From Spirochaetota bacterium (GTDB lineage Bacteria > Spirochaetota > UBA4802 > UBA5550): a stretch of 64,000 bases of DNA. The stretch is from NCBI GenBank assembly GCA_025457915.1, contig JALOTL010000015.1, forward strand, positions 62,001 to 126,000. Direction: 5' to 3'. Positions 1,209 to 19,637 of the stretch are shown in pieces. A program made the translations under genes and the position numbers. Every line of letters starts with the position of its first letter. Position 1 is the first letter of the stretch. The notes beneath the pieces are model-generated. The model was given only the letters and a program-made list of their open reading frames with translations. It was not told the DNA's origin and did not search any database.

Positions 1209-1994
1209 ATGGAGTTCAAGGAAACAAGGCCGCTTTACCTGCTCGGCGAGATTGCTTCAATTCTCAGGGGCGAGGACGGATGCGCCTGGGACAGGGAACA
1301 GACGCCGCAGACCCTCAAGCCGTACCTCATAGAGGAGGCTTACGAACTATACGACGCGATCGACAAGGAAGACCCGGACCACATAAGGGAAGAACTCGGC
1401 GACCTGCTCTTCCAGGTTTACATCCATGCCCAGATCGCGAAGGAAAAGGGACTTTTCACAATTGACGACGTAGCTTCCGACGCGGCGGAAAAGCTGATCA
1501 GAAGGCACCCCCATGTTTTCGGGGACGATGAAGTTAAAAGCGCGAGCGAGGTGATAGACAGATGGGAAAAAATCAAGAAAAAGGAAAAGCCCCACAGGGA
1601 ATCGATTCTTGACGGCGTTCCCAGACATCTCCCGGCGCTGCTCAAGGCCTATCGCGTGCAGCAGAAGGTTTCACGCGTCGGATTCGACTGGGAATCATCT
1701 GAAGGCGCGCTGGAAAAGCTCGAGGAAGAGGTATCCGAGCTGAGGGAGGCCGCATCATCAGGCGACAGGGATTCGATTCTGGAAGAAAGCGGCGACATGC
1801 TCTTCAGCACCGTAAACATTCTCAGGCACATGGGGATAAACCCGGAGGACGCCCTCATAAAAAGCACCGAAAAATTCATCCGGCGTTATAAAAAAATGGA
1901 ATCAATCGCATCCGAACGCGGCCTCAAGATAGAGGACCTCGACATTAAGGGCATGGACTCACTCTGGGAGGAAAGCAAGAATAAAGGGTTATAG
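1209..1994 (+). CDS. mazG: Nucleoside triphosphate pyrophosphohydrolase MazG
   Basis: MazG hydrolyses NTPs and dNTPs to the monophosphate and pyrophosphate and acts as a house-cleaning enzyme. The 261-residue product has the two tandem MazG domains of the full-length bacterial form. The first has the metal-binding pattern EEAYEL followed by EELGDLL; the second has EEEVSEL followed by EESGDML. All acidic ligands are present in both. An in-frame ATG at 1152 would add 19 residues with no family resemblance. The ATG at 1209 has a GAGG ribosome site 8 bases upstream and starts just before the conserved region, so it was chosen. The 3' end overlaps the convergent batD gene by six bases. Confidence 0.93.
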   Translation: MEFKETRPLYLLGEIASILRGEDGCAWDREQTPQTLKPYLIEEAYELYDAIDKEDPDHIREELGDLLFQVYIHAQIAKEKGLFTIDDVASDAAEKLIRRHPHVFGDDEVKSASEVIDRWEKIKKKEKPHRESILDGVPRHLPALLKAYRVQQKVSRVGFDWESSEGALEKLEEEVSELREAASSGDRDSILEESGDMLFSTVNILRHMGINPEDALIKSTEKFIRRYKKMESIASERGLKIEDLDIKGMDSLWEESKNKGL

Positions 1995-3599
1995 GATGCC
2001 CTCTTTGATTTTCCTGATCTCCACGTAAATGCTTTTCATATCATCACCGTTTATTTTCCGGCCGGCGTACCTGTAGCCGGATATCGCTTCCCTCAATTCG
2101 GCCAGGCGCCCGGCGTCTCCGTCAGACGGACCGCTTGAAATCTCGTCGATCGCCTTCTCGGCAGACCTTATGAATGACGCTGAATCCATTTTATCGAGTG
2201 ACGACTTCATTTCGGCGATGCGGTCAGCCCCGACGGCGTCCCCGGTCTTTTCTTCATAGCGGTCATCCTTCACGCTTTTTTCCCCTGATATCTGCCTGTA
2301 TCTCCTTCTCTCCCAGATTATCATGAAGGTCATCCCGCCGGCTGCGGCAGCAGCGATCAGTGCGATATAAACCGGGTTGAATTCCGGACCGCCGTCACCG
2401 GCGTCTCCATCCGCCTGCGTCTTTTTCTTTTTTTCACCGGGCCTGACCTCGAACCTTATGCTGTCAGTCTCCGCCGCGCGGAACGCGCCGGCCTCGGCGT
2501 CAAAATAAGCCATCCTTACCTTCCCGAGATCAAGCGTTCCGGGCTTCTCAGGCACTATCGTGAATATGAATTTCTTTTCGCCCCTGAGCCTGTTGTTTTC
2601 GACGCTTATCCTGGTATCGCCCTCTTCCGCCAGGACCCTGGCTCCGTCCGCGTCTTTCGTGAAGCCCGGCTTGGCGAGGGTGATGAAATTCCCGGTGCCG
2701 CTGACGACAACGGTCACTTTTTTTTCCTCGTACGCCTTCACCGGGCTGCCGTTAAAATCGCTTTTAATGGCGAAAGAGCCCACGTCCCCGTTGAAGTCCT
2801 TCGGCCTTCCGGCCGCCGGGATCTCGACAACCTCGACGTCCTTATATCCGAACTGTATTCTTTTCTGCTGTGGAAAAACTGAAAGCATCCCGCCGCCACC
2901 CTCCATGACGACCGCGGTGCCCCCGCCGATTTTATGGCGCCCGGGTGACAGCGCAGCCATGGCGGAAATCATAAGGGGACTGCCTTCCGATGCCCTGTCG
3001 GACGACAGGTCGCGATCGTCAGGGGTGTCGATTCCCTTTGAAACAAAGCCTCGGATTTCCGGGGGCTTCTCGAACCCGCTGAATTCCATTATATTGCCGG
3101 ATGAAAGGAAGTATCTCATGATAAAGGGCTCGCCGACGTAAAGTTTCTTCTTCGATACGGTAACCGACGTTGAGAGGGGCTCTTCAATTGACTGCGGCCG
3201 CCCCCCCTCGCCCGAAACCGTCAGGGCAACCTCCCTGCTCTTGACCGTGTTTCCCCCGGCCTTAAAGACAAACGGCGGAATCCTGTAGACCCCTTTTTTT
3301 TCGGCCTGGATCATGAAGGTGAAGGAGACGCCGAAGCGGCTGACACCGTTGATGAATTCATAGTTTTTCTGTGTCCCGGTAAATGCGATCCTGAGTCCAG
3401 GGACCGCGGGATAGGAAACCGGCTCGATGTCGCCGCTCATGCCGGAAAACCTTATATGCATCTCGGTTGTTTCCCCGACGGAAATCCGGTTTCCCTCGAG
3501 AACCGTAGCCACTTCCGGAAACGCCCTTGCCGAGCATAAGAAAAACAGGGCGGCAATGAAAATAATTCTACCAGTTCTTTTCAAGCTGCCTCCTTTCAT
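1989..3599 (-). CDS. batD: BatD-type oxygen-tolerance protein
   Basis: The 536-residue protein starts with a signal peptide (hydrophobic core about 12-22, small residues near 25). It continues as beta-rich periplasmic domains typical of BatD, with one membrane segment near residues 408-427 and a charged cytoplasmic tail of about 110 residues. BatD belongs to the Bat set, first tied to aerotolerance in Bacteroides and also found in Leptospira. It is thought to work with the BatA/BatB von Willebrand proteins at the inner membrane, but its biochemical role is unsettled. The ATG at 3599 has a GGAGG site. An AAAGGAGG lying just inside the frame could instead drive a TTG start five codons later. 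The gene overlaps the end of batC by 32 bases, which suggests translational coupling, and is the last gene of the locus. Confidence 0.82.
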   Translation of the reverse strand: MKGGSLKRTGRIIFIAALFFLCSARAFPEVATVLEGNRISVGETTEMHIRFSGMSGDIEPVSYPAVPGLRIAFTGTQKNYEFINGVSRFGVSFTFMIQAEKKGVYRIPPFVFKAGGNTVKSREVALTVSGEGGRPQSIEEPLSTSVTVSKKKLYVGEPFIMRYFLSSGNIMEFSGFEKPPEIRGFVSKGIDTPDDRDLSSDRASEGSPLMISAMAALSPGRHKIGGGTAVVMEGGGGMLSVFPQQKRIQFGYKDVEVVEIPAAGRPKDFNGDVGSFAIKSDFNGSPVKAYEEKKVTVVVSGTGNFITLAKPGFTKDADGARVLAEEGDTRISVENNRLRGEKKFIFTIVPEKPGTLDLGKVRMAYFDAEAGAFRAAETDSIRFEVRPGEKKKKTQADGDAGDGGPEFNPVYIALIAAAAAGGMTFMIIWERRRYRQISGEKSVKDDRYEEKTGDAVGADRIAEMKSSLDKMDSASFIRSAEKAIDEISSGPSDGDAGRLAELREAISGYRYAGRKINGDDMKSIYVEIRKIKEGIL

Positions 3600-4266
3600 C
3601 GGACCCTCCCATGCGCCTCCTTACGGGACTGTTCTTCAACGAATTGAGCATGTTTTTCATCTGGATCTCGTCGAGCTTTCCCGCGCCCCCGGAGGCCCGA
3701 CCGGCCCTGTTTTGCGCGTTGCGGCTGTCATCACCCTGCTTTTTGCCGTCCTTCCCTGACCGGCCTCCGTCATCTCCCCGCTGTCCGCCGTCCTTCCCTG
3801 ACCGGTCCCTGCCGCCCTCGCCGCTTTCCCCGGTCTTGTTTTTCAATATGTATTCAATATTTTTCTTGGCGCCCGGGTGTGCGGGATCGATCCTCAGGGC
3901 GTTCATGTAGGCATTGACCGCCTCCCTGTAGTCGCCCTTTTTCATGTATGTGTTGCCCAGATTGAACATCGAGGACGACTGCACTTTTTTATCCTCCGAC
4001 CCGAGGCCTTCCCTGAAACTGGCGGCGGCGGAATCGTAATCACCCAGCATGTAATCCGCATCGCCCTTGTTGAATGAGAGCTTTCTTTTGTCCTCTTCCC
4101 CGGGCGCGTACCTGTCGGCGGAATTGTAATGCCCCTTCGCCTCCCTGTATTTTTTTCCGGAGAATTCCCTGTTGCCGTCGGAAACCCTGTCCCTGAAGGG
4201 ATCTATCCATGCGGCATTAATAAAAACCGCCAGTAATAATAAAATTTTATAAATTCTTGGATCCAT
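3568..4266 (-). CDS. batC: BatC-like TPR protein
   Basis: The 232-residue product has an N-terminal hydrophobic segment (residues about 5-20, signal peptide or anchor), then about three tetratricopeptide repeats (residues about 30-145; one reads FNLGNTYMKKGDYREAVNAY). A strongly charged low-complexity stretch of Gly, Asp, Lys and Arg follows, with the word RSGKDG twice, and then a short basic tail. TPRs mediate protein contacts, and BatC proteins of this layout accompany BatA, BatB and BatD. I chose the ATG at 4266; a TTG nine codons upstream is also in frame. Two kinase genes separate it from batB, so it sits apart from its usual partner but on the same strand. Confidence 0.8.
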   Translation of the reverse strand: MDPRIYKILLLLAVFINAAWIDPFRDRVSDGNREFSGKKYREAKGHYNSADRYAPGEEDKRKLSFNKGDADYMLGDYDSAAASFREGLGSEDKKVQSSSMFNLGNTYMKKGDYREAVNAYMNALRIDPAHPGAKKNIEYILKNKTGESGEGGRDRSGKDGGQRGDDGGRSGKDGKKQGDDSRNAQNRAGRASGGAGKLDEIQMKNMLNSLKNSPVRRRMGGSDERRQLEKNW

Positions 4267-4440
4267 CTTTAAACCCGATAGAGAATCAGACAATGATGAC
4301 GTTTAAAAGTTACCCACATATCAGGCCAATCCGTTTTCTTGTAAAGTTTTTTTCCGGTCAATGACGGGCCATGTTGTAAAACAGGTAATTCAATAAATTC
4401 AACGCCGAGCAGTATTAATCGTTTCCGGGGGGATTGGAAT

Positions 4441-7400
4441 CTAATTGAAATTTTTAAGATGGATGCCTATGACGGTAATATCGTCGTTTTCATTTATTCT
4501 TTTTTTGTAATTCAGGAACGACGTCAGCTCGTCTATCACCTCGTTGATGATTTCCTTCAGGGATGAATTCATTTTTCTCTCTATTACCCCGAACATCCTG
4601 TCCTGCCCGAAGGTCTTGCCGTTTATGTCGAACTGCTCGTATAATCCGTCCGTAAGGAGAAACAGCCTGTCGCCGGGTTCTATCGCCACCTCCTCGGTGC
4701 CGTATGAGGATTCCTCGGTGAGACCGATTATCCTGCCGGTCCTCCCGAGATGAAGTATCCTGTCCTTCTTGATCAGGTACTGGCTGGGGTGTCCGGCGCA
4801 GGAATAAAGGATCCTCCTGTTTTTAGTGTCTATGTCAAGGACCATGCAGGTAAACATCATGTGGATCGACGAATAAAACCTGACCGATATGCCGTTGAGA
4901 ATTTTTATGATGGAAGCCGGACCGTCCGCGGATTTCTTCACCTTCTCGTATTCGCTCATTATTATCATCGTGACGAGGGCCGCCTGGACCCCGTGACCGG
5001 TGGCATCGGCGATCAGCACCCTGATATATCCGTCCTCGATCTGGCAGACGTCGTATATGTCGCCCCCGACCTCGCTCATCGGATAATAATGTATGAAAAA
5101 CTCCGCGCAGGGGATATTTTCAAGGTCCCTCGGAAGAATGCTTTCCTGGATGCTCCTCGCCAGCGAAAGGTCCTCCTTTATGATACCCATGGCCTCGCTG
5201 ATGGAATTGTAGGCGATCCCCAGCTCTTCGTTCGCCCTGTTCAACTCCACGGTCCTCTCCCTTACCTTCAGTTCAAGGTTCTGATATAGATAGGCGTTTT
5301 CTATCGCAATCCCGGCCTGGGCCATGAACACGCCGAGTATATCTGCCTCCTCCTCGGTAAACACCCCGCTGGACAGCGGGTTGTCGAGATAACAGATGCC
5401 GGTTACGCTTTCCCTGTACTTTATCGGAATGCACAGGATTGACTTCAAACCGTACCTCATGACGCTCTGTATCATCGAGAGGGCGTCATCCTTTTCCGCG
5501 TTGGTCGTGATGATGGTTTCGCCCTTCTTTAAAACCGTCTGGAGGATGGTGTTCGAGTATTCCGGCTTCTCGTCCATTATCGTGTTCTTGGCGACCTTTA
5601 GATCCAGCTCGCCGCTTTCAATATTTTTTACGAAAAGATAGCCCCTCTGCGCGCCGGTAACCTCGAGGGCTTTGGACATTATATGGTCAAGAAGATCGTC
5701 TATATTCAATATTGAGCTTATGTCCTGTGACAGCTTTATGATGGTGGACAGCCTGTTCCTGTCATGCAGCTTCTTGCCGTAATGGTCCTCTTCCTCGAAT
5801 TCCGCCATACCGAGAAGCTTGCCGGAGCGCCTGATATACTCCCTGGCCCCGATTTCATGGAATATCCTGTAGGCGGACTCTATTTTTTTTCTTCCCAGCT
5901 CCTGGTCGCTTTTCCTGACAAGGAATTCTCCGTAATCAAGAAGGGTCCTGGCCGTCTCGAACCTCCTTCCGTATCTTGAAAGATGATCAATGCTTTTCTG
6001 AAACAGCGACTCGGCCTTTCCGCTGTTTAAAAGAAGTGAATTGAAAAGGGCGCTCACCCTCATAGCCGTCCCGGAATGATTGGACCATTTCCCTGTCTTT
6101 TTCAACGCGAGCCTGCAGAGCCTTCCTATCCTTCTTATTTCCGCCGAATCACGTCTGAGAAGGCCCTTGTGGTCCGCAAGGTATTTCTTGAGATGGGCCT
6201 CCGCAAGATAATTGTAGAGGTGAACCGTATAATCCTTGAGAAAGCTGTTCCTCCTGTCCATCTCCATCGCTTTCTCCAGGTGGCGGATGGATGCTTCGTA
6301 ATCCCGGCTCTCGAGACAGAGATAGCCTTCTATTATATAATTCACGCATTCGTTGAATTTCAGGCTGTGCTTTTTACAAATATTGAGGGACTCCCTGCAG
6401 TATTCCCTCGCGTTATCGAACTCCCCCATCTCAATGAAGCACAGGGAAAAATACTGGTAGCACCTGCTGAGGCCGTAATGGTCGGACAGCTTTCTTGAAA
6501 TGACCTGGTACTCCCTGCCCCTGGCGAAGGCGCTCTCATAGTTGGAGCTCATGTAGTCGTTGTAGAACATCCCGCCGAGGATCATGCCGATCTCCCAGAG
6601 GTCGCCTATTCTCCTGAAGATCTCGAGCCCCCTCGTGAACTCGTCGTTGCTTTCCTTGTAATTACCCTGCCAGGAATAGCAGTACCCGGACCACTGCAGG
6701 CTCTGTCCGACGCCCCATTCATCCCCGTTCCTTCTTCTCATGTCAATGGAAAGCCTGTGAAACTTGTGCGCGAGGTTGAAATATGGGATCGCCATGCACA
6801 TGCTGGCAAAGGCGCCGAGGCTCTGCCCGAGCTCCTTCGACTCGCCTATCCTGCTTTCGGAAATGTTGAGCATCCTCAATATGCTGTTTATGAACTTCTT
6901 CAGGTCCGAGAGTATGTACATCCAGTTCATGGTAGAATACAGGAACACCTTCAGCGTGCTTTTCCGCCCGGGCGCGGTGCGTGGATTGCGCCTGAATACT
7001 CCCGGGAAAACGATATGCAGGACGTGCACCGCCAGTTCTTTTATTATCCTCGTGTGAAGGTAAACGCTGTTGATCGGGAGCCTTTCGCCGAGCAGCCTCA
7101 GCCCGAGCCGCCCGTATTTTTCACACTGGACCCAGTCCCCCATTTTGAAATACGCAAGGCATATCTGCCGGTATATGAGGACCTTGTCGTATTTGCTTTC
7201 AATCCGTGTAAGTATGCTGTTGTAAAGCCCTATGGCCCTGTCGAGCACGCCGATGGTGAGATATATCTCGCCGAGCTCCTTGTGGCTCTTTATCCAGAGT
7301 TCCAGGTTTTCACTTGTCGCCTTTCCTGAAGCGACTTCACCGTCAAGAATATCGTTCACCACGGTAAAATACTTGATGGCCTCATTGTTGGCATAGCTGC

Positions 7401-9684
7401 CCTTGGCCTTCATTGCGGCCGGGAAGGCATACTGGAGCGTTTTCGACGGGCAATTGCATTCGATAAAATGATACGCGAGGTCGAACTGCATTTCGTCCCT
7501 TTCACCGTCGTAAAGCCCTTCAAGAACGGTGGCCGCGATGAAGTGCAGGTCCCTTCTTCTCTGGGGATCAAGCCCTGAATAAAAAATCTCCTTGATTTTT
7601 TCATGACTGAACGAAAGAAGCCCCTTTTCCTGCATGTCCCTTTCCATCAGCTGCAGAGAGATCACATTGTCTATCATTCCGACCACCCTCTTGTGGTCGG
7701 GAACGTTCCCGTTGAGCACGAAGGATATCGTGCCGTCCGGGTCCTTTCGATTCACGCATCTCTTCAGCCGGTCCATGCCGATGAGTATATCGGTCCTGAT
7801 CGTCCTTCCCATCACCGACGCGCAGGCCAGCAGGTCTTTTTCATCATCGCTTAAAAATGAGATCCTCTTGATGATCACGTCGATCAGCTTCTGCGAAATC
7901 TCGATTTTCCTGAACACCGACGGGTCAAAATTCCACCTGTCCTGATTGTAAACGATGGCCTTTTCATCTATCATCTGCTTGAGCAGTTCGATCGCGAAAA
8001 AAGGATTGCCGTTTGTTTTCCTGTATATGAGCTCCGTGATCCCGACCGTATCGGCCTCCTTCTGATAAAGGAGCCCGGAAACTAGTTTCCCCATCCCTGT
8101 TTCATTGAGCGGCTTTAAAAGCATCTCGGTTATATGATAACCGCTTTCCTTGGCCCTTGAAACAAATTTGCTCATGGAGTGGTTTTCGGTCAATTCCTCG
8201 GTCCTGAATGTGCAGAATATCAGGACCGGGACCTTTTCAATGGTCTGGGACATCTCCAGAAGAAGGGAGTATGTTCCCTCATCGGCCCACTGGAAATCGT
8301 CTATAAGAAACACAAGCGCGCCTTCTATCTCTCCTATAATCTTGAAAAGCCTGGCCGAGATCATCATGAACCGCTGAATTTCCCTGTCGGGCTCAAGCTG
8401 CACGAGGTCAGGGCATTCCCCGATGATCTCCCTCATCGCCGGATTCAGCTGTATCGCTATCTGGCCGAGGTCCTTCAGCTCGCCCCTTATCCTTGAGCTT
8501 ATCTCACTCCTCTCCCATTCCGGCCTCTTCCTGTAGCTGGCGGCATAAACATTAAGAGCGTCCCTGAACGGGCCGTAAGGGATCCTGTTCACGGATTTAT
8601 AGCATCTGCTTTCAATAAACATTCCCCCGGTGGGAAAAACCTGCGGCCTTATCTCCTCCGCCAGTCTCGTTTTTCCCATTCCGGCCTCGCCCCCGATCAG
8701 GCATATACCGCCGTTTCCCTTGAGGGTCCTGCCGTACATCTTCTTCAGGAAATTCAGTTCGTCGTCCCTTCCGACAAGCCCGGACCTGAAACTGAGTTTT
8801 ATCACCCTGTCGTATTCGCCAGGCGTAAAATCCATGAATCCGTCCCTGAACCTTTTCAGATCGTTGAGTAGTCCCCTCGCGCTCTGGTATCTCTTCTCCG
8901 GCTCTTTCTCAAGCAGTTTCAGGACTATTTTCCACAGGACATCGGGCATATCCGGGGAGAATTTTTTATGAATGACCGGCATTACGGCGATGTGGCTGTG
9001 TATGAGGCTGCTGATGTTGTCGCTCTTGAAAGGCAATTCTCCCGCGAGGAGCTGGAAGAGGATCACGCCGAGCGAATAGAGGTCGCTCCTTTCATCAACC
9101 TGCCGCTTCAGAGCGCCGCTCTGTTCCGGCGACATGTAACTGAAGGTCCCGACGATTTCATCCGGGTCCGATATGGCGCTGTATTCCTTTATCTGCGACA
9201 GGCCGAAGTCAATCAGCTTCACCGACAATTCCCCGGGAAGCGATTTGTCACGCCGGACAATAATGTTGCTGGGCTTGATATCCCTGTGGATTATCCTGTT
9301 CCCGTGCACGTAATCCAGCGCCCTGGATACCTGCATGGCGATCTCTATTATTTCATTGACGCTGAAGCCGGCGTCCAGGAGCTTATCGAGGCTGTGCCCC
9401 TCGAGGTATTCCATCAGAATGTAATTCTGGTTGTTCATGTTTCCCGCATCAATGACCTTGACGATATTCGGGTGGGACAGGCCGGAGGTTATAGAAACTT
9501 CGGAATTAAACCTGATTAAATCCTCTATCCTGTTAGAGATGCTTTTATCCTTGAGCACCTTCAGCGCGAGCTTCCTTTCCGGCTCGCCCTGCTCGTGCGC
9601 AAGATAAACCACGCTGATGCATCCTTCCGCCAGCATGCGGTCAATCTCGTACCTGTCGAAAAGGGATGTCAACCCGGGGTTCAT
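4441..9684 (-). CDS. Giant Ser/Thr kinase-ATPase-TPR-GAF protein with C-terminal SpoIIE/PP2C phosphatase
   Basis: The 1747 residues form, in order: a Hanks-type kinase (about 11-271) with the ATP lysine in ALKVLK, HRDIKPSN, DFG and SPEQ intact; an AAA-type ATPase (from about 300) with Walker A GGEAGMGKT and Walker B LVFLIDD; a long helical TPR-like region; a GAF sensor domain (about 1325-1465); a coiled coil; and a SpoIIE-type phosphatase (about 1530-1745). The phosphatase metal motifs GGDIYD, DATGHG, LTDG and ENDDIT are present. The glycine loop is reduced (LAEGCISVVY) but the sister protein has a similar one. It is presumably a cytoplasmic signalling hub whose phosphatase would act on STAS-type partners. 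The start ATG overlaps the sister gene stop (ATGA) and follows a GGAGGGGGA ribosome site. Ligand and targets are unknown. Confidence 0.92.
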   Translation of the reverse strand: MNPGLTSLFDRYEIDRMLAEGCISVVYLAHEQGEPERKLALKVLKDKSISNRIEDLIRFNSEVSITSGLSHPNIVKVIDAGNMNNQNYILMEYLEGHSLDKLLDAGFSVNEIIEIAMQVSRALDYVHGNRIIHRDIKPSNIIVRRDKSLPGELSVKLIDFGLSQIKEYSAISDPDEIVGTFSYMSPEQSGALKRQVDERSDLYSLGVILFQLLAGELPFKSDNISSLIHSHIAVMPVIHKKFSPDMPDVLWKIVLKLLEKEPEKRYQSARGLLNDLKRFRDGFMDFTPGEYDRVIKLSFRSGLVGRDDELNFLKKMYGRTLKGNGGICLIGGEAGMGKTRLAEEIRPQVFPTGGMFIESRCYKSVNRIPYGPFRDALNVYAASYRKRPEWERSEISSRIRGELKDLGQIAIQLNPAMREIIGECPDLVQLEPDREIQRFMMISARLFKIIGEIEGALVFLIDDFQWADEGTYSLLLEMSQTIEKVPVLIFCTFRTEELTENHSMSKFVSRAKESGYHITEMLLKPLNETGMGKLVSGLLYQKEADTVGITELIYRKTNGNPFFAIELLKQMIDEKAIVYNQDRWNFDPSVFRKIEISQKLIDVIIKRISFLSDDEKDLLACASVMGRTIRTDILIGMDRLKRCVNRKDPDGTISFVLNGNVPDHKRVVGMIDNVISLQLMERDMQEKGLLSFSHEKIKEIFYSGLDPQRRRDLHFIAATVLEGLYDGERDEMQFDLAYHFIECNCPSKTLQYAFPAAMKAKGSYANNEAIKYFTVVNDILDGEVASGKATSENLELWIKSHKELGEIYLTIGVLDRAIGLYNSILTRIESKYDKVLIYRQICLAYFKMGDWVQCEKYGRLGLRLLGERLPINSVYLHTRIIKELAVHVLHIVFPGVFRRNPRTAPGRKSTLKVFLYSTMNWMYILSDLKKFINSILRMLNISESRIGESKELGQSLGAFASMCMAIPYFNLAHKFHRLSIDMRRRNGDEWGVGQSLQWSGYCYSWQGNYKESNDEFTRGLEIFRRIGDLWEIGMILGGMFYNDYMSSNYESAFARGREYQVISRKLSDHYGLSRCYQYFSLCFIEMGEFDNAREYCRESLNICKKHSLKFNECVNYIIEGYLCLESRDYEASIRHLEKAMEMDRRNSFLKDYTVHLYNYLAEAHLKKYLADHKGLLRRDSAEIRRIGRLCRLALKKTGKWSNHSGTAMRVSALFNSLLLNSGKAESLFQKSIDHLSRYGRRFETARTLLDYGEFLVRKSDQELGRKKIESAYRIFHEIGAREYIRRSGKLLGMAEFEEEDHYGKKLHDRNRLSTIIKLSQDISSILNIDDLLDHIMSKALEVTGAQRGYLFVKNIESGELDLKVAKNTIMDEKPEYSNTILQTVLKKGETIITTNAEKDDALSMIQSVMRYGLKSILCIPIKYRESVTGICYLDNPLSSGVFTEEEADILGVFMAQAGIAIENAYLYQNLELKVRERTVELNRANEELGIAYNSISEAMGIIKEDLSLARSIQESILPRDLENIPCAEFFIHYYPMSEVGGDIYDVCQIEDGYIRVLIADATGHGVQAALVTMIIMSEYEKVKKSADGPASIIKILNGISVRFYSSIHMMFTCMVLDIDTKNRRILYSCAGHPSQYLIKKDRILHLGRTGRIIGLTEESSYGTEEVAIEPGDRLFLLTDGLYEQFDINGKTFGQDRMFGVIERKMNSSLKEIINEVIDELTSFLNYKKRINENDDITVIGIHLKNFN

Positions 9685-12600
9685 TCCCCCTCCCGCTCCC
9701 TCTTTCTGAATTCTGTCGGGGTAACCTTCATTATTTTCTGGAAGGCCCTGTTGAATGTCCTGAGGCTCTCAAAACCTACGGCATAGGCTATATCGACTAT
9801 GTTATCTTCGCTGCCCGTCAGCTTTTCCACCGCGTCCCTTATCCTCAGTTCATTGATGAACTCCCCGATCTTCTTTCCTGCATAGGTCTTGAACTGCTTC
9901 CCGAAATGGTCAGGGTGTACCTCGACCATCGCGGCCAGGCCCTCCCTCGAGATGTCGGAGGTGTAGTTCTCGGTTATGAAGTCTATAACGCTCCTTATCT
10001 TCTCCTCGGACACGGGCGTCACCATGCCTTTCTTCCTGTCCTCGTCGTTGAAGTCCATTTTTTTATGTATGATTGCGTTTTCGATCGCGAAGGCAATCTG
10101 GGACATAAAGGCCGCAAGGAGGTCCGCTTCCCTTTCGGTAAAAACGCCGCTCGAGAGGGAATTGTCAACGTAACACACGCCCAGTTTTCTTTCACCTGCC
10201 GTTATCGGCACGCACAGCACGGATTTCATTTCATGAAGCGAGACGCTGTCCTGGTTCATGAACCTGTCATCCGCCGACGCGTCGGTAGTTATCACATAAC
10301 TTCCGCCCGTGTAGGCCTTCCCGGCGATGGTCTGGGAAAATTCGAACTTATCCGGGCCTTCGAGGTTCTTCGACACAAGGATCCTCAAATTACCGCCGCT
10401 GTCGGAAACGAAAATCACGCCGCTCCTCGCGCCGGATATTTCAAGACATCCCTTCAGCGCCTCTTCGACGAGCCTGTCCGGATCGGACATTCCGCAAACC
10501 TGTTTTGAAAGCTTGATCAGGGAATAATACCTCTCCCTGTCCAGGAGCCTTTCGAGGATGCTGCCCTCCTGCTGATCGGAGCTGACGTGGAGTATTTCGC
10601 CGATGCGTTTCCTGTACAGGGCTGATTTTATCTGGCTGAATATCCTGTACGCCTCTTCGAGGTATCTCTTTGAATTTTCAGTGTCCCCTTTCATGGAAAG
10701 CATGAGTCCGTATTCATAGAGGCACCTCGCCTCTTCATACTTCCTGCCGGATTTCCTTAGATTTTCAAACGCCGCATTGAAATATTTTTCGGCCCTGTCC
10801 AGGCCCCCTGTAAGGTAATGATACCTCGCAAGGACCGCGAGTGACGAACCGTAATGGGAAGGCCACCTCTTCGTCCTCCTGACGGATTCGCGGCAGGTCT
10901 TCCTTATCCTTGACAGGTAAACCTTCTTTTCCCCGGGTTCGAGGGAATCCCTTTTCTCAACATACTCCGACAGCCTCGCTTCCGCAAGCCATGTAAACAG
11001 ATAAACCGTGTAGTGCTTCAGGAAATGGTTTGACAGGTAAAGAGACCTGGCCTTTTCGAGGTTTTCGATGGCTGCTGCCGAATCCCCCTTCTCCATGAAG
11101 ACCCTGCCCAGTTCGCAGCAGGCCCTGCAATTTGTAAAAAGAAGGTTGTTCTTCAGGCTGACTTTATATGCATGCGCCCCCTCTTCCTCGGCCTTTACCA
11201 GATCGCCGATTTCAAGATGGCACCCCGTGCTGTAGGTGTATGTTTCGCTTATTCCGTAAACGTCGCCGGTCTTCGCTGTTATGTCCCTGTACTGGTTGAC
11301 ATTGGCCATGGCCATGTCGTATTCGGACATCAGGTAATAATTGTATATCAGCCCCGCGATCGACATTCCTATTTCCCTGCTGTCGCCAATCCTCCTGAAT
11401 ATATCAATGCTCCTGTTGAAATTCTCTACGCTTTCCAGGTAATCCCCCTTCCAGTTCAGCGAGAAGCCGATAAGCTGGTGCGTCTGCGCCACCCCCCAGA
11501 TATCGTTCAGACTGGTTCTCAGTTCAAGGGCCATAGTGTGGTACTTGATGCAGAGCTTGAAAACAGGGATAGCCGCCCAGAGATTGCCGTAAGCCGACAG
11601 CATCATCCCCAGCTCGCTCGACCTGCCTATCTTGCTTTCGGCTATGTTGAGGCCCCTGATTGTCGACCAGATGTATTTTAAAACGTCGCTCAGTATGAAT
11701 GTCCAGGCGAGGGATAGATAAAACCATATTATTGCCCTGTGCCTTCCTCCAGTCTTCCGCGGGTTCTTCCTGAAGAACAATGCGGGGAAGGCTGAATGAA
11801 GCAGGTGTACCGCCAGTTCCCTGGCAATGCTCAGAACGATGACTCCCTTTCGCGACGGCATCCCTTCCCTGAGAAGGAGGAGGCCCATCCTTGCGTATTT
11901 TTCGCAATTGTGCCAGTCCCCCTTCTTGAAATAAGCCTGGCTTATCTGCCTGAATATATTCACCTTTTCATCTTTGTCTGAAATCGGCTGGAGCCTGTTG
12001 AAGAGATCGATCGCCCTGTCGTTGCTCCCGACAGTCAGGCACACCCTTCCCATCTCCTCGATGCACTCCTTCCATAGCTGGCGCTTGCCGCCGGACGACG
12101 GCGGCACGTCTATCCCGCCGATCAGCTCGAGCGTCAGCGTGAAGTATCTCATCGCGTCCTCGTTGGCATAGTCCCTCATGGCCTTCCTGCCCGCCGGGAA
12201 CGCGTATTCAATGGATTTTTCCCTGTCTCCCCCTTCGATATAATGGTGCGCGAGATCGAAAACCACAGCATCGGGATCTATCCTGTGCATGTCCTCAAGC
12301 ACCCTCGCCGTAAGGAGATGCAGCTTTTTCCTGTCGGATTCCCTCATGCTCCTGTAAAAGGCGTCGGTTATGCGGTCATGCACGAAAAGTATCACGCCCT
12401 TCTCCTGCGGGTCCTGCTCGAGAAACTGGAGGCTTATCGCCCTGTCGACGGCGCCCACCACCTCGTGGTGTGGCAGGCCGCCGAGGGAAAAAAGCAGCTC
12501 AAGCGCGAATTTCTTTCCTATTACCGCGGCGCACGACAGGATCCCGATCTCCTTTTCGCTCAGCAGGTCCATCCTGGCCAGGATGATGTCGACCACGGAC

Positions 12601-14366
12601 TGGTTGATTCCAATATTCGGCCCGAGAAGATCATGCCTCCAGGTCCCGGCGTCCTTCGTGAAAATCTTTTCCTCTATCAGCCTCTTGAGGATCTCGATGG
12701 CGAAAAACGGATTTCCGCCGCTCTTGGACAATATAAAATCCGAAAGCTTGACCGTCTTCTCTTCGTCCTCGAAAAGCATCTGTGAAATGAACCTGTTCAT
12801 CTGGGGACCGTCGAACGGATCGAGCCTGATCTCGTCCACCGGCCATTTCTTTTTCCTGGCGTCCCTGATGAACTTCGAAAGGCTGCCGGTCTTCCCCGCC
12901 GTGAGTTCCCTGTAGGTGCCGATCACCATCAGGCCGTGGTTTCCGATATCGCCGGTTATTTCCGCGAGGAGATCAAGGGTCCCGTCGTCCGACCAGTGAA
13001 GATCGTCAAGAAGTATAACGAGTCCTTCTGAAAGCTCGCTAAGCCTGAACAAAAACTGGGATGATATCATCAGGAATCTTTTATATTCCCTGTTGGGCTC
13101 GAGTGATATCGGTTTGGGGTGACTGCCTATTATCTCGCTCATCAGGGGGCACAGTGTCAGAATTATGTGACCCAGATCCGAAAAATCGTCAAGGAGCGCG
13201 CTTTTTATCTCCTCCTTCCTGGTCCGGGGAAAGGTGCCGAAGCTCCTCACGTAGGAATTGAGGGCGTCCCTGAAAGGCCCGTAGGGAATTTTATTTTCGC
13301 CCGAGAAGCATTTGCCCCCGATAAGCATGCCTCCGCCGGCATATATATAATCCATTATGTCCTCTACGAGCCTCGTCTTGCCTATGCCGGCCTCCCCGCT
13401 GAGAAGGCAGAGCAGCCCGGCCCCCTTTTTTGATTCATCATAATAGACCCTGAGGGAGTGCATCTCCTTCTCCCTGCCGACCAGGCTCGTCCTGTAGGAA
13501 AGCCTCGGCGATTTGTCTTCGAACCCGAGGGGAAAATCGCTTTCTCCGCCCTTGAATTTTTCAAGGTCCCTGGTAAGGCCCGCGGCGCTCTGGTATCTCT
13601 TCTCCGGCTCCTTCTCGAGCATCTTCATTACAATTCTTGAAAGCATAGGCGGCACTGCCCGGTTCACATCAGACGGCTCCTCAGGCACGACGGCGACATG
13701 CTTGTGTATTACAGAGCAGATGTCGTTCCCGGAAAAAGGCGGTTCCCCCGTAAGCATTTCATAGAAGACGACGCCGAGGGAATAAAGATCGCTTCTTTCA
13801 TCGGTTTTTCTTTTAAGTATCCCGGTCTGTTCCGGGGATATATAACCGAATGTCCCGGTAACGGCATCGGGATCCAGCGATTCGGAATAATTCTTGATCT
13901 GCGAAAGGCCGAAATCGATGAGTTTAACGGCATCTTCCGCGACCAGTATATTGCCTGGTTTGATGTCCCTGTGGATGATTCCGTTTGAATGTATGTAGGT
14001 GAGGGCGTTGCTTATTTCAAGTATGATTCCCGCGCTTTTTTCAACGGACATGCCGCGTTTGATGTGGATCGAGAGGCTTTCCCCGCTGAAGTATTCCATT
14101 ATTATATAATGGAGATCCAGCACTTCGCCGATTTCATGTATCTTTATTATCACAGGATGCTTGAGTCTTGAAACGGTAAGGGCCTCGGATCTGAAACGGA
14201 TGATATCCTCTATCCTGTCAGATGTAGACGAGGTCTTCAGGATTTTAACCGCAACGTTTTCTCCGCTGACGGTATCCGCGGCGAGATAAACATAGCTCAT
14301 CCCGCCCTCTGCAAGCAGCCGGGATATCTTATATCGGTTGCCGATTACTATTCCGGAAAAATTCAT
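9681..14366 (-). CDS. Giant Ser/Thr kinase-ATPase-TPR-GAF protein with C-terminal AraC-type DNA-binding domain
   Basis: This 1561-residue paralogue of the downstream gene has the same front end: kinase (about 10-270) with VAVKILK, HRDIKPGN, DFG and SPEQ; ATPase with Walker A SGEAGIGKT near 325 and Walker B LVILLDD; TPR-like helices; and a GAF domain (about 1295-1435). In place of a phosphatase it ends in an AraC-family double helix-turn-helix (about 1452-1555) carrying the family signature IAYAVGF followed by FNRAFQK and TPTEFRK. The protein could therefore both phosphorylate and bind DNA, which is inference. No clear ribosome site precedes the ATG at 14366, and 131 bases separate it from batB, so an own promoter is possible. 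The stop overlaps the next start by four bases, indicating tight co-translation with the phosphatase sibling. Confidence 0.92.
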   Translation of the reverse strand: MNFSGIVIGNRYKISRLLAEGGMSYVYLAADTVSGENVAVKILKTSSTSDRIEDIIRFRSEALTVSRLKHPVIIKIHEIGEVLDLHYIIMEYFSGESLSIHIKRGMSVEKSAGIILEISNALTYIHSNGIIHRDIKPGNILVAEDAVKLIDFGLSQIKNYSESLDPDAVTGTFGYISPEQTGILKRKTDERSDLYSLGVVFYEMLTGEPPFSGNDICSVIHKHVAVVPEEPSDVNRAVPPMLSRIVMKMLEKEPEKRYQSAAGLTRDLEKFKGGESDFPLGFEDKSPRLSYRTSLVGREKEMHSLRVYYDESKKGAGLLCLLSGEAGIGKTRLVEDIMDYIYAGGGMLIGGKCFSGENKIPYGPFRDALNSYVRSFGTFPRTRKEEIKSALLDDFSDLGHIILTLCPLMSEIIGSHPKPISLEPNREYKRFLMISSQFLFRLSELSEGLVILLDDLHWSDDGTLDLLAEITGDIGNHGLMVIGTYRELTAGKTGSLSKFIRDARKKKWPVDEIRLDPFDGPQMNRFISQMLFEDEEKTVKLSDFILSKSGGNPFFAIEILKRLIEEKIFTKDAGTWRHDLLGPNIGINQSVVDIILARMDLLSEKEIGILSCAAVIGKKFALELLFSLGGLPHHEVVGAVDRAISLQFLEQDPQEKGVILFVHDRITDAFYRSMRESDRKKLHLLTARVLEDMHRIDPDAVVFDLAHHYIEGGDREKSIEYAFPAGRKAMRDYANEDAMRYFTLTLELIGGIDVPPSSGGKRQLWKECIEEMGRVCLTVGSNDRAIDLFNRLQPISDKDEKVNIFRQISQAYFKKGDWHNCEKYARMGLLLLREGMPSRKGVIVLSIARELAVHLLHSAFPALFFRKNPRKTGGRHRAIIWFYLSLAWTFILSDVLKYIWSTIRGLNIAESKIGRSSELGMMLSAYGNLWAAIPVFKLCIKYHTMALELRTSLNDIWGVAQTHQLIGFSLNWKGDYLESVENFNRSIDIFRRIGDSREIGMSIAGLIYNYYLMSEYDMAMANVNQYRDITAKTGDVYGISETYTYSTGCHLEIGDLVKAEEEGAHAYKVSLKNNLLFTNCRACCELGRVFMEKGDSAAAIENLEKARSLYLSNHFLKHYTVYLFTWLAEARLSEYVEKRDSLEPGEKKVYLSRIRKTCRESVRRTKRWPSHYGSSLAVLARYHYLTGGLDRAEKYFNAAFENLRKSGRKYEEARCLYEYGLMLSMKGDTENSKRYLEEAYRIFSQIKSALYRKRIGEILHVSSDQQEGSILERLLDRERYYSLIKLSKQVCGMSDPDRLVEEALKGCLEISGARSGVIFVSDSGGNLRILVSKNLEGPDKFEFSQTIAGKAYTGGSYVITTDASADDRFMNQDSVSLHEMKSVLCVPITAGERKLGVCYVDNSLSSGVFTEREADLLAAFMSQIAFAIENAIIHKKMDFNDEDRKKGMVTPVSEEKIRSVIDFITENYTSDISREGLAAMVEVHPDHFGKQFKTYAGKKIGEFINELRIRDAVEKLTGSEDNIVDIAYAVGFESLRTFNRAFQKIMKVTPTEFRKREREGE

Positions 14367-14497
14367 ATAGGGAACTATCGGAAAAATAGCATAATCATTT
14401 GGAAGGGGATTTTATAAAAAATCAAGTTAATAAATATTTGAGCGGGAATTAATTAAAAAAGATCCGGGAGGGTTGAACAAAACAAGTCTGGTTTACA

Positions 14498-15535
14498 CTA
14501 TAGAGTTTTTTTTATTTTTTTTCTTACGAATTTGACAATGTTTCCGGATCTTTCGGCCATCAGCATCTCGAAAGAAAGCAATAAAAAAAGCACGACTGCG
14601 AATATCTGGAACCTCTCGATCCTTTCATTCACAATCCTGGTTCCGTATTCATTTTTTCGCTGGTCGGAAATTATATCAAGTATCGATCCCATGCCGGAAA
14701 GATCCCCTGTTATGTCGATATAATTACCGCCGGTAGACACGGCCAGCTTTTTCAGCAATGAGGAATTCTTTTTAGTCCTGACCAGGTTTCCCGACGAATC
14801 CCTGATAAAACCCTTTGTTCCGGATTGCCCCTCTCCCGAGGGAATGAAGTCGCCGTCATCCCTGCCTATGCCGACCGTGTATACGGAAACGCCCAGGTCC
14901 CTGAACGCCGGTATGGCGTCTAGCGCCGTGCCCTCATTGTCCTCGCCGTCCGTTATGACAACCAGCACCTTTGTCGTCAGCCTCTTTTTTGTGAAGACCC
15001 TCGCCGCTTCGCGAAGCGCCTTGCCGATGTCGGTGCCGCGGAGCCCGATCGAGTCCGGGGATGCTCCGTCAAGGAACATCATGAACGCGCCGATGTCGTT
15101 AGTCAGGGGACATTGCAGAAAAGCGTCCCCGGAAAAAAGTATAAGCCCCATCCTGTCGCCCCCGAGGGACATGGCGAGCCACTTGACGGCGTCCCTGGCC
15201 CTGTCAAGCCTGCTTGGATTAACGTCGCCGGCAAGCATGCTCGGACTCACGTCGAGAGCGATAAGAACGTCCGAGCCCTCGCTTTTAACCTCGCGCGGGA
15301 CGCTCCCCCACTGTGGACGCAGCAACAGGAAAGCCGAAAGCAGAACGGATACGGCGATTATCGCCTCCCTTGCCGCGGACACCGTCCTGGATCCCTGCAC
15401 GATTCGGATCTGGCCGCCCCTGAATATCGCTGAAAGCATTCTTCTCTTCCATAATACGTACAGAAGAAAAAGGGAAAGGGTCAGACCGGACAGGGCGGCT
15501 ATGTATATCATGTATTTATAGTTTCCGAAGCCCAT
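14498..15535 (-). CDS. batB: BatB, von Willebrand A domain membrane protein
   Basis: The 345-residue protein has membrane segments near residues 8-28 and 56-72, a VWA domain with the metal-binding MIDAS motif DVSPS at about 95-99 and an ITDGEDN motif, and a final membrane segment near the C-terminus. This is the usual BatB/BatA layout. The ATG at 15535 overlaps the batA stop by one base; a GTG one codon earlier is possible. An AGGAAG lies about 8 bases upstream. It is expected to sit in the inner membrane and to pair with BatA through the VWA domains; the molecular function of the complex is not established. Confidence 0.9.
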   Translation of the reverse strand: MGFGNYKYMIYIAALSGLTLSLFLLYVLWKRRMLSAIFRGGQIRIVQGSRTVSAAREAIIAVSVLLSAFLLLRPQWGSVPREVKSEGSDVLIALDVSPSMLAGDVNPSRLDRARDAVKWLAMSLGGDRMGLILFSGDAFLQCPLTNDIGAFMMFLDGASPDSIGLRGTDIGKALREAARVFTKKRLTTKVLVVITDGEDNEGTALDAIPAFRDLGVSVYTVGIGRDDGDFIPSGEGQSGTKGFIRDSSGNLVRTKKNSSLLKKLAVSTGGNYIDITGDLSGMGSILDIISDQRKNEYGTRIVNERIERFQIFAVVLFLLLSFEMLMAERSGNIVKFVRKKIKKTL

Positions 15536-16533
15536 CACGGTATCTTCCTGTAAAAAACAGACCTGAGGATGACCTCGAGAAAAAAAAGCGAAATCGACGC
15601 TAGAAGAAAATCGAAAAACCTGTCGTGAAACTCGTGATATGATTTGAGATCTATCTCGCTTTTTTCCAGCCTGTCGATGTCGCTGATATTTTCCCAGAGC
15701 ACCCCCGTGGACGCGGCGCGGTAGTATTTACCGCCGGTCATCCCGGAAATTTTTTCAAGAACAGCCGGGTCAAAGTGATTGTCGACGTATCTCCTTCCGA
15801 AAATGGACCCAGCCGGCCCCGGGTAAGGGACCCTGCCGTCCCTGCCGATGGCGACGCTGTATATTTTTATGCCCAGTCCGTTCATCGCCTTTGCCGCCGT
15901 CTCCGGATCGACGCTCCCCCTGTTGTTCACCCCGTCGGTGATGAGAAGAATGATTTTAGATTTGGATTTGCTGTCCATCATCCTTGACCCGGAAAGGGCC
16001 AGCGCGTCCCCTATGGCCGTGCCGTCGACCGGCACGGTTTCGAAATCAATATCATCGATGATCTCCTTCAAAATATCATGCTCGATGGTGAGGGGACACT
16101 GGAGATACGCTTCGCCGGCAAAAACCGTCATCCCGATCCTGTCGCTTTTCCTGTTTTCTATGAAACCCTTGACCACCTGCTTTGCCACCGCGAGCCTGTT
16201 GTTCGGCTGGAAGTCCTCGCCCCTCATGGACCCGGAGACATCGAGCGCGATCATGATATCTATTCCAAGGTTTTTAACGCTGGTGTAGTCAATGCCCCTC
16301 CCGGGCCTGGAAAGAGCGATGATCAGGAAAAAAAGCGCGAGAAATCTCAGGACCGGAAGGAACCTGTATGTGCGCGCCCTTATGGAATCCCTTTTTTTAA
16401 GTATGCCGCGGGAGGGCACGGATATCGCCGATTCGCTTTCATATAGTTTCGCGAAAATATATAAGAAAACCATCGCCGCGTATGGAACCAGGAGCAGCAG
16501 GAACATCGGGTCCCTAAACTCTATCCGGGACAT
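15535..16533 (-). CDS. batA: BatA, von Willebrand A domain membrane protein
   Basis: The 332-residue product has two N-terminal membrane segments (about 10-28 and 60-75), a VWA domain with MIDAS motif DVSGS at about 98-102, a conserved DGTAIGDAL segment and ITDGVNN, and a C-terminal membrane segment near 305-325. The ATG at 16533 follows GAGGGAG by seven bases and was preferred over a TTG two codons earlier. It overlaps the end of the preceding gene by 20 bases and touches batB, so the three are likely translated together. BatA and BatB share roughly the same architecture and are probably products of duplication. Confidence 0.9.
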   Translation of the reverse strand: MSRIEFRDPMFLLLLVPYAAMVFLYIFAKLYESESAISVPSRGILKKRDSIRARTYRFLPVLRFLALFFLIIALSRPGRGIDYTSVKNLGIDIMIALDVSGSMRGEDFQPNNRLAVAKQVVKGFIENRKSDRIGMTVFAGEAYLQCPLTIEHDILKEIIDDIDFETVPVDGTAIGDALALSGSRMMDSKSKSKIILLITDGVNNRGSVDPETAAKAMNGLGIKIYSVAIGRDGRVPYPGPAGSIFGRRYVDNHFDPAVLEKISGMTGGKYYRAASTGVLWENISDIDRLEKSEIDLKSYHEFHDRFFDFLLASISLFFLEVILRSVFYRKIP

Positions 16534-17503
16534 TCCCAATCTCCCTCGATATTCTCTCCGCGAGCCTGACCGCGGACTCCATGTTCCCGATCATCGTTTC
16601 CCTGGATGGAGAGAATTCAGCGTATTTTGACAGATCCCACAGCGAGAAACACGAACTCATGTCGTCGAGAAATTTCCGCCAGCCCGGCCTCGACGCGACC
16701 GTTTTAAGTATTTCATCGGAGGTCATGTCCATGGCGTCGAAAGACATCTGGAGGGAGAGGTATCCCCTGAATATCATAGAAATCCCGAAGGCGTATTTTG
16801 CGGCCATGCCGTCTTCGATCAGCTTCATGCCGTTGAATTCGTCCATCTGCCTCCTGAAAACATCGATCGGGGGGACCCGCGCCGGCGGCGGGACTGATTG
16901 CTCCTTTCTTCTTTTGAAATACCTGTATGCGAAGAAGGCGATCGCGCAGGCGGCAGCGAGACCCAGTACTGCCAGTATAATCCTGTAATAATTTCCCCCT
17001 AGATCAAGAGGAGGGTCGATCTCCTGGAAGGTCCCTTCCCTGTTGATTTCATTGACCTCGATCTCCGGTATCCTGTATCCGACCTTCGTACCGTCCCCGT
17101 CCCTGATATCAATCTCGGGAAGCTGGTGGCGGCCCGGCCTGTAATAGGAGAGCTTCATGGAAACCCTGATGCCGCTGCCCCCTTTAACCACGCGGTACTT
17201 TTTTGCATCATTTATTGAATAGACTGGGACATTCGATGAAGGATTTTTATCATTCCCGGAGGAGTTTTTTTTCGGATCGTCCTTTTCCGGGGGATAGTAG
17301 TTCTTTTTCCCGGGGACGGTTATATTGAGAGCGTCGGATCCGTCACCCGTGATTTTAACCTCGTATTCGATTTCATCGCCTACGGTCGCTTTTTCGGCGG
17401 AAACCGCGGCCCTTATTTCCGGGTACGCTCCGGCCGCGGTTGAAACCGCAATGACCAGCAGCATTGACGGAAACGCGCGTTTTAATGAATTAATAAACTG
17501 CAT
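16514..17503 (-). CDS. BatD-like short protein of the bat operon (signal peptide, beta domain, one TM)
   Basis: The 329-residue protein has a signal peptide (hydrophobic 12-24, cleavage likely after AGA), a beta-type extracytoplasmic domain, a membrane segment near 171-190 (followed by the basic YRYFKRRKE), and a helical cytoplasmic tail of about 135 residues. The layout resembles a shortened BatD or the DUF4381-type proteins that usually lie between the DUF58 gene and batA in such operons. No catalytic motif is visible. Position suggests it is a membrane partner of the MoxR and VWA proteins. It starts seven bases after the DUF58 gene ends and overlaps batA. Confidence 0.75.
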   Translation of the reverse strand: MQFINSLKRAFPSMLLVIAVSTAAGAYPEIRAAVSAEKATVGDEIEYEVKITGDGSDALNITVPGKKNYYPPEKDDPKKNSSGNDKNPSSNVPVYSINDAKKYRVVKGGSGIRVSMKLSYYRPGRHQLPEIDIRDGDGTKVGYRIPEIEVNEINREGTFQEIDPPLDLGGNYYRIILAVLGLAAACAIAFFAYRYFKRRKEQSVPPPARVPPIDVFRRQMDEFNGMKLIEDGMAAKYAFGISMIFRGYLSLQMSFDAMDMTSDEILKTVASRPGWRKFLDDMSSCFSLWDLSKYAEFSPSRETMIGNMESAVRLAERISREIGNVPDRV

Positions 17504-17509
17504 AAAAAA

Positions 17510-18358
17510 TCATCCCTGGTCGCGCCTGACGAGCCTGGTCCTGTTTCTCTTTTCAAAAAACCTGAGTATGGGAATCTCTATAGGTTCCGACGTGCTGACA
17601 TGTATGGCGTCGAAATCGGCCAGCACGGGAAAGGCGCCTTCCTCGGGAATCATGTCGTAAAGAAAACTTTCCCCGGTCTCAAGGTCCGCGAACTCCGCTA
17701 GCCCGAATATCCTCATGGCCTTCTCCATCGGGTCGGACACCTGCACGGGGATGATATCGTGCTTTTCTCCCAGGAGCCTCAGCTTGAGCTTGTAGTCCTT
17801 CCGGCCGTCTATGAAATCCGAAATCAGGAATATGACGCTCCGCTTTTTCAGCACCCTCCTGGCGAAATCGACCGCCGCGCCGATGTCCGTCCTCCTGTCC
17901 GCCGGCCTGCACCTGGCGATCTCGTCCATCACCTTGAGTATGAATTTGCGTCCTTTCTTGGGCCTGATGAATTTCTCAACGCCCCCGCTGAAGAGAATGA
18001 CGCTCACCCTGTCGTTGTTCATCTGGGAGAGGTAAAGAAAAAGCGCCGCGATCTCCAGGACTACATCGCTCTTTTTTCTTTCACCGCCGAAATCCGTAGA
18101 ACCGGACACGTCTATCATCAGCACAACCGAAAGCTCCCTCTCCTCTATGTATTCCTTTATGTAGGGATGGTTCATCCTGGCGGTGACGTTCCAGTCGACG
18201 TTCCTGATATCGTCGCCGTAATCGTATTCACGGACCGAATCGAACGAAAGGCCGAACCCCCTGAATGCCGAATGGTATTCTCCGACGAACAGGGTGTTGA
18301 TCTTCCTTCCGGTCCTGATTTTTATTTTTTTCAGGAGGGCTGAATCGGCCGTTACCAA
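17510..18358 (-). CDS. DUF58 domain protein (VWA-like)
   Basis: This 282-residue protein has the DUF58 signature FRGFGLSFDSVREYDYGDD followed by the DWNVTAR stretch (residues about 32-62), and a VWA-like fold with DVSGS at about 88-92. DUF58 proteins travel with MoxR ATPases and are presumed to be their clients or adaptors. The only sensible start is a TTG at 18358, just after the moxR stop and preceded by GGAGG at eight bases; no ATG lies nearby in frame. No membrane segments are seen, so it is probably cytoplasmic. Confidence 0.9.
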   Translation of the reverse strand: MVTADSALLKKIKIRTGRKINTLFVGEYHSAFRGFGLSFDSVREYDYGDDIRNVDWNVTARMNHPYIKEYIEERELSVVLMIDVSGSTDFGGERKKSDVVLEIAALFLYLSQMNNDRVSVILFSGGVEKFIRPKKGRKFILKVMDEIARCRPADRRTDIGAAVDFARRVLKKRSVIFLISDFIDGRKDYKLKLRLLGEKHDIIPVQVSDPMEKAMRIFGLAEFADLETGESFLYDMIPEEGAFPVLADFDAIHVSTSEPIEIPILRFFEKRNRTRLVRRDQG

Positions 18359-19342
18359 TCAGGGGACCTCCACCGAATCGAAAATCATCCTCACGACGTC
18401 GTCGGGACCCCTGCCGTCAGCCTCCGCCTCGTAGGAAAGTATGATCCTGTGCCTGAGAACGTCGGCGCCTATCTCCTTGACGTCATCCGGGGTGGCGAAT
18501 CCCCTCCCCCTCATGAATGCCACGCACTTCGCGGCCTTCATGAGCGCGATCGACGCCCTGGGGCTTGCGCCGTATTCGATGTATTTCTTGAGCTCCTTCC
18601 GCCCGGGGTTCCTCGTCTCTCCGGCTACCGAAACAATGTAATCGACGAGCTTCTCGTCCATGTAAATCGAATCTGCGATTTTGGATTTTTTAAATATTTT
18701 TTCAGGGGTTATTATCTGTCTGATGTTGGCGACGTCCAGTTCGCCGAACCTCGTCAGTATCTGGCGCTCCTCATCCCTGCCTGGGTATCCGACAAGCACC
18801 TTCATGAAAAACCTGTCAAGCTGGGCCTCCGGAAGGGGATATGTCCCCTCCTGTTCAATCGGGTTTTCAGTGGCCATGACCATGAATGGGCTGTCGAGAC
18901 TGTGCGTTTCCTCTCCGATGGACACCTGCTTCTCCTCCATGGCCTGGAGCAGGGCCGACTGGACCTTGGCCGGAGCCCTGTTTATCTCGTCAGCGAGCAG
19001 GAGGTTCGTGAAAATGGGGCCTTTTTTCGTAAAAAAATCGAGGTCCTTGGGATTGTATATTCTTGTCCCTATAAGGTCTGCGGGAAGAAGGTCCGGCGTG
19101 AACTGGACCCTCATGAAATCAGTATTGATGCATTTCGCGAACGACCTCACGGCAAGCGTCTTCGCAAGCCCGGGAAGCCCTTCAAGAAGGATATGCCCCC
19201 CGGACATGAACGCTATGATCATCCGGTCCAGCAGGTTTTCCTGGCCTATTATGACTTTTGACAATTCGGATTTTATCTCTCCGATGAACCCGTTTTCAGA
19301 TTTGACCTTTTCGGTCAGCTTTTCGATTGCAGCATAATCCAT
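18359..19342 (-). CDS. MoxR family AAA+ ATPase
   Basis: The 327-residue protein is a MoxR-type AAA+ ATPase: Walker A GLPGLAKT at 55-62, Walker B LLLADEINRAP near 115-125, sensor motif ATENPIEQEGTYPLPEAQLD, and a C-terminal lid domain. MoxR ATPases act as chaperones that load cofactors or remodel VWA proteins. It is the first gene of the locus, with GGAG eight bases before the ATG. The upstream 295 bases separate it from the divergent aldolase gene and should hold its promoter, but I could not pin one down. Confidence 0.93.
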   Translation of the reverse strand: MDYAAIEKLTEKVKSENGFIGEIKSELSKVIIGQENLLDRMIIAFMSGGHILLEGLPGLAKTLAVRSFAKCINTDFMRVQFTPDLLPADLIGTRIYNPKDLDFFTKKGPIFTNLLLADEINRAPAKVQSALLQAMEEKQVSIGEETHSLDSPFMVMATENPIEQEGTYPLPEAQLDRFFMKVLVGYPGRDEERQILTRFGELDVANIRQIITPEKIFKKSKIADSIYMDEKLVDYIVSVAGETRNPGRKELKKYIEYGASPRASIALMKAAKCVAFMRGRGFATPDDVKEIGADVLRHRIILSYEAEADGRGPDDVVRMIFDSVEVP

Positions 19343-19559: not shown

Positions 19560-19637
19560 TCTGACAACGGCGGTTTTTTAGTAATGCATGCATGATAAAC
19601 GCCGGGCACAAACAGAAAGACCCCGAGGAGGATGATT

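Follow-up and report, generated by a model that had tools for sequence, protein, structure and literature searches.

The Bat proteins have no known function in any organism (PMC3557215). The locus described here lies in a window of 64,000 nucleotides, which is the whole stretch of DNA analysed (G000:C8:62001-126000), and it has the same gene content and order as the Leptospira-type bat operon, with the difference that about 10.2 kb carrying two kinase genes separates batB from batC in the window. For Leptospira biflexa, independent promoters seemingly drive the bat-cluster genes (PMC3557215). BB0173 of Borrelia, a BatA-type protein, is described as having its VWA domain on the periplasmic side (PMC5700661), and in L. 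interrogans the loss of PerRA, a peroxide-responsive regulator, lowers a gene for a GAF-domain Ser/Thr kinase (PMC8638967).

In the open-access literature, the nearest described kind to the two kinases of the locus (K2 and K1) is that of the cyanobacterial dual Ser/Thr-His kinases. Like K2 and K1, these cbSTKIII proteins (HstK-type; Alr2258 HstK) have an N-terminal Ser/Thr kinase and a GAF domain before the C-terminal output, and they show a large lineage-specific expansion; two of them, Alr0709-Alr0710 (Pkn40-Pkn41), form an adjacent, co-transcribed pair to which K2-K1 can be likened (PMC2176072). Their output end is a His kinase, whereas K2 ends in an AraC-type HTH and K1 in a SpoIIE phosphatase; neither K1 nor K2 has the C-terminal HisKA plus HATPase of cbSTKIII, and the terms "AraC" and "SpoIIE" are absent from the text of the cbSTKIII survey (PMC2176072). 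With the same general build and other output ends, K1 and K2 are thus a variant and not members of cbSTKIII. Among spirochaetes, dual Ser/Thr-His and TPR-bearing kinases with related domains are described from L. interrogans; the relevant passages of that source give them a His kinase output or TPR, and mention neither a bat operon nor AraC or SpoIIE ends (PMC1262709). The TOMM system kinase/cyclase fusion protein (TIGR03903) has kinase and ATPase regions in common with K2 (residues 290-750; whole-protein E 6e-69), but the score of 233 against a cut-off of 706 indicates that K2 shares domains only.

Results

The window belongs to a genome of 3.66 Mb in 50 contigs. FlaA, the flagellar sheath protein, had three matches in this genome versus 0 in 14 control genomes, and the best matches of BatA, BatB and BatC were Leptospira models; judged from these sequences, the genome is placed in Spirochaetota. 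A contig scan with K2 recovered two planctomycete kinases alone, at 37% over the kinase domain.

Read along the minus strand from 19342 to 1989, the genes follow the order moxR, DUF58, BatD-like, batA, batB, K2, K1, batC, batD (Table 1), so that the moxR-DUF58-batA-batB-batC-batD order is kept on one strand despite the intervening K2 and K1. Open reading frames, Pfam and NCBIfam agreed with the earlier note on gene order, coordinates and the single strand, and also on the 131-nt gap ahead of the first kinase. The gap that it had placed after K1, at 4267-4440, exists as well but is better set at 4264-4440, because batC probably begins at the ATG at 4263, judged more likely than the TTG at 4293. 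Its kinase-ATPase-TPR-GAF description of both genes was supported by Pfam, and it had missed their output ends. Genome-wide, AAA_3 matched moxR alone, and batB is likewise single-copy. The BatD-like protein matched no family in a Pfam scan; its gene has a homologue in the equivalent position in most relatives.

Table 1 Features of the bat locus and of the two kinase genes in the window
Feature	Position	Strand	Description	Basis
moxR	18359..19342	-	AAA+ ATPase, first operon gene	Pfam AAA_3, E 2.7e-63
DUF58 gene	17510..18358	-	DUF58 protein	Pfam DUF58, E 5.6e-59
BatD-like gene	16514..17503	-	BatD-like / LB_053-like protein	NCBIfam LB_053_fam, E 2.6e-11, under family cut-off
batA	15535..16539	-	VWA protein	top NCBIfam match Leptospira BatA, E 6.4e-81
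batB	14498..15538	-	VWA protein	top NCBIfam match Leptospira BatB, E 1.9e-48
batB-K2 gap	14367..14497	-	131 nt, G+C 0.31	no same-strand terminator called
K2	9681..14366	-	1561 aa: Pkinase, AAA_16, TPR, GAF, AraC-type HTH	Pfam
K1	4441..9684	-	1747 aa: Pkinase, AAA_16, TPR, GAF, SpoIIE/PP2C phosphatase	Pfam
K1-batC gap	4264..4440	-	177 nt, G+C 0.40	no same-strand terminator called
batC	3568..4263	-	TPR protein	top NCBIfam match Leptospira BatC, E 4.7e-37
batD	1989..3599	-	BatD	Pfam BatD, E 1.3e-24

Repeats and further genes were also observed around the operon. A tandem 37-nt repeat in batC (window:3727-3805, 86%, spacing 42 nt) falls in a low-complexity Gly/Lys/Asp region, and a pair of 15-nt inverted repeats (window:19401-19415 and 19566-19580, 93%, 150 nt apart) lies in the divergent region upstream of moxR. 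Directly downstream of mazG and batD, the minus strand encodes a 360-aa protein with 4Fe-4S domains (window -51 to 1032; L134:15951-17033). In one relative (G008), a gene for a membrane protein with 4Fe-4S domains was found between DUF58 and the BatD-like gene (L081:6504-8046).

At the C-terminus of K2, HTH_18 was matched at residues 1477-1556 (E 5.8e-19) over all 80 of its positions, and the region is predicted to form the double HTH of the AraC/XylS type (about 100 residues). K1 carries the SpoIIE/PP2C phosphatase at residues 1551-1742 (E 2.3e-37) with all four metal-binding Asp motifs of the PPM type (GGDIYD, ADATGHG, TDG and NDD). The catalytic Lys, HRD, DFG and Walker A motifs are intact in both proteins, and K1 has an unusual glycine loop (LAEGCISVVYLA). 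By domain content, both are members of a modular kinase-ATPase-TPR-GAF family. The two genes overlap by 4 nt, suggesting translational coupling. For the middle region of K2, a PDB sequence search returned TPR proteins alone. The ATPase region was also compared with the MalT-like STAND ATPases, a class with a NACHT/NB-ARC-type P-loop, a winged helix and superhelical repeats: structure models from both window proteins were of too low confidence for use (mean pLDDT 51 for K2 residues 275-760), Foldseek with the K2 model found no match at E <= 0.001, and TPR_MalT gave a weak match in one paralogue, which is neither K1 nor K2. In PADLOC, the matches of K1 and K2 to defence kinases (PD-T4-6, mad6) were confined to the kinase domain.

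To place the arrangement among relatives, 46 genomes of the order were compared; in 33 of them batB and batC share a contig and a strand (32 relatives and the window's own genome). The two genes are 8-284 nt apart in 29 of the 32 relatives versus 10,237 nt in the window, where the batB-batC adjacency or fusion of the spirochaetal bat operon is thus absent; in the remaining three, the spacing is 1194-1498 nt. Six of the 29 closely spaced relatives (G005, G023, G032, G040, G042 and G045) hold batB and batC within a single open frame, as in the fusion on record for L. biflexa (PMC3557215). The slot between batB and batC is occupied by a receiver-GGDEF gene that runs in the direction of the operon in G015 (L087:14848-16347) and G017 (L089:14630-16130), and by an IS200-like transposase on the opposite strand in G012. 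No kinase was found at the batB/batC junction of any of the 32 relatives in the order, and a search with K1 and K2 of 40 bat loci (728,935 bases, distant phylum members included) gave no kinase or AAA match.

The earlier note had stated that bat genes are usually contiguous, as the 29 relatives confirm, and that the kinases are integrated into the locus. The latter is right in so far as K2 and K1 lie inside an otherwise conserved operon, on its strand and with no terminator called; the view that they are a conserved or integral part of it is not supported, since all searched relatives lack a kinase at this place and the homologues sit at unrelated places. The comparison of gene order which that note had proposed therefore largely gave the outcome that it had named as contrary to its view, with the bat genes contiguous elsewhere and the kinases scattered. 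It had also raised the possibility that the Bat VWA proteins are substrates of the kinases. Phosphorylation of BatA or BatB would agree with the gene position alone, whereas relatives whose bat operon lacks these kinases have the same Bat proteins, the predicted DNA-binding output of K2 points to transcription and not to Bat as the target, and the BatA-type VWA domain is described as periplasmic (Borrelia BB0173, PMC5700661) while the kinase domain set is cytoplasmic. We consider such phosphorylation highly improbable.

A simple scan of 14367-14497 and 4264-4440 called no intrinsic terminator on the coding strand in either gap. The short gaps and the lack of a called terminator make co-transcription with bat plausible, and perhaps the AT-rich 131-nt gap contains a promoter, which would be compatible with the result of the scan. 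The same-strand position and the operon-like gaps would also fit selection for coupling to Bat. K2 and K1 could then be a dedicated Bat regulator, in which the HTH of K2 binds the promoter region of moxR or batC and K1 resets the switch. Consistent with such a role are the position within the operon and on its strand, the two gaps (131 and 177 nt), which are operon-like in size and hold no called terminator, and the presence of signalling genes (receiver-GGDEF) in the same slot of G015 and G017; the GAF-bearing Ser/Thr kinase of L. interrogans that is lowered on PerRA loss (PMC8638967) offers a loose hint. Nevertheless, no relative has a kinase at the bat junction, kinases and Bat occur independently across genomes, and the upstream regions of K2 and moxR have no common motif: an operator motif sought among the upstream regions of K2, moxR, batC and the AraC-type kinases of relatives scored no better than in shuffled sequence. 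Control of Bat by K1 and K2 is possible, but we regard a dedicated regulator as unlikely.

Apart from the paralogous kinase repeats and those internal to batC, no direct or inverted repeats and no trace of a mobile element were found flanking the insert. In codon usage, K1 and K2 show correlations of 0.93 with the bat genes and of 0.90-0.92 with other genes in the window, and such host-like usage does not indicate a recent foreign origin; a foreign origin was accordingly set aside as unsupported. These data also bear on the assembly. The genome is the sole representative of its genus in the comparison set, and the K2/K1 junctions are seen in one fragmented assembly, so a kinase pair from elsewhere in the genome, or from another genome, might have been misjoined into the bat operon; 50 contigs, a single genome of the genus and a repetitive kinase family that favours mis-joins all speak for this. 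Against it, two mis-joins would be needed, each exactly intergenic and leaving batB and batC intact, with K2 and K1 abutting each other, and the codon usage is that of the host. Moreover, K1 and K2 are just 32-48% identical to all other sequences found, which means that they offer no long shared repeats at which a mis-join could arise. An assembly artefact is thus very unlikely.

Homologues of K1 and K2 are common and dispersed across genomes. In G011 a kinase homologue shares a contig with bat, at a distance of about 115 kb; G017 has four AraC-type giant kinases arrayed in one 26-kb stretch (L120, L121; G017:C38), and G005 has two SpoIIE-type copies in tandem with a 4-nt overlap as in K2/K1. 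The K2-K1 pairing itself was not repeated in any neighbourhood of homologues examined. Long kinase matches occur without a BatD match in G037, G049 and G054, and Bat is present with no more than weak kinase matches in G001, G003, G016 and G026. As far as these matches tell, the kinases and Bat are distributed independently of each other. The output ends of the family are of at least four kinds (AraC HTH, SpoIIE, GGDEF and PAS-HisKA-REC).

A tree of 37 proteins with the output ends removed, built by a quick method with SH-aLRT support only, paired K2 with the AraC-type L116 of G020 (SH-aLRT 98) and K1 with the SpoIIE-type L141 of G005 (SH-aLRT 100), and K1 and K2 sit in different supported larger clades. 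The separate clades indicate that the pair is not a recent local duplicate, and a recent tandem duplication was rejected on this ground. Duplication in situ followed by a swap of output domains would account for two adjacent genes whose products are 41-42% identical across about 1450 residues, and tandem arrays of the family do exist in G017 and G005; however, the output-free tree joins each protein to relatives of its own output type in other genomes, and we hold this origin to be highly improbable.

The same genome holds further genes of this kind. A third giant gene of 2105 aa (Pkinase-AAA_16-GAF-PAS-HisKA-HATPase-REC; minus strand, G000:C8:54850-61168, L134:8851-15168) lies before window position 1, about 3 kb downstream of batD, giving three giant kinase genes within about 22 kb. 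The SpoIIE end of K1 has more than 40 matching places in its own genome, and STAS has 28 matches, of which two fall inside the window, at about 59542-59805 and 62077-62325. With these numbers, partner-switching regulation looks heavily expanded in this genome.

Discussion

The arrangement probably reflects an insertion, limited to this lineage, that placed two resident genes of a dispersed, modular family between batB and batC. The pair would have entered a standard spirochaetal bat operon, whose flanking genes were retained. Each genome carries many genes of the family, and the bat operon takes up about 7.4 kb of about 4 Mb; on a rough, uncomputed estimate, a single hit on the operon among 46 genomes would in itself be unsurprising. 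Neither control nor phosphorylation of Bat is needed to account for the arrangement.

The domains suggest how the inserted pair may work. K2 would be a large cytoplasmic one-component regulator, in which GAF, TPR and ATPase sense and gate a signal, the kinase acts on K2 itself or on partners, and the AraC-type HTH binds DNA. K1 may serve as a kinase/PP2C-phosphatase switch that dephosphorylates K2, in a putative K2-K1 partnership, or STAS-type partners, for which the 28 STAS matches in the genome are candidates. Transcription that starts at the bat promoter probably reads through into both genes, which perhaps have an additional promoter of their own. That K2 and K1 form a self-contained switch wired into the bat operon, so that Bat expression follows a cytoplasmic signal, is a doubtful extension of this scheme.

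For the bat locus, these results mean that two large regulatory genes can come between the members of a tightly kept gene pair, one that is even fused in some relatives. Within this family, foreign genes have entered the batB/batC junction on at least three occasions (kinases, receiver-GGDEF and transposase). For the kinases, one sensory scaffold with exchangeable outputs (DNA binding, phosphatase, diguanylate cyclase and His kinase) provides a comparable set of proteins, useful for asking how Ser/Thr kinases relay signals to different outputs. Should a natural regulatory link to Bat be demonstrated, it would offer a way into Bat function.
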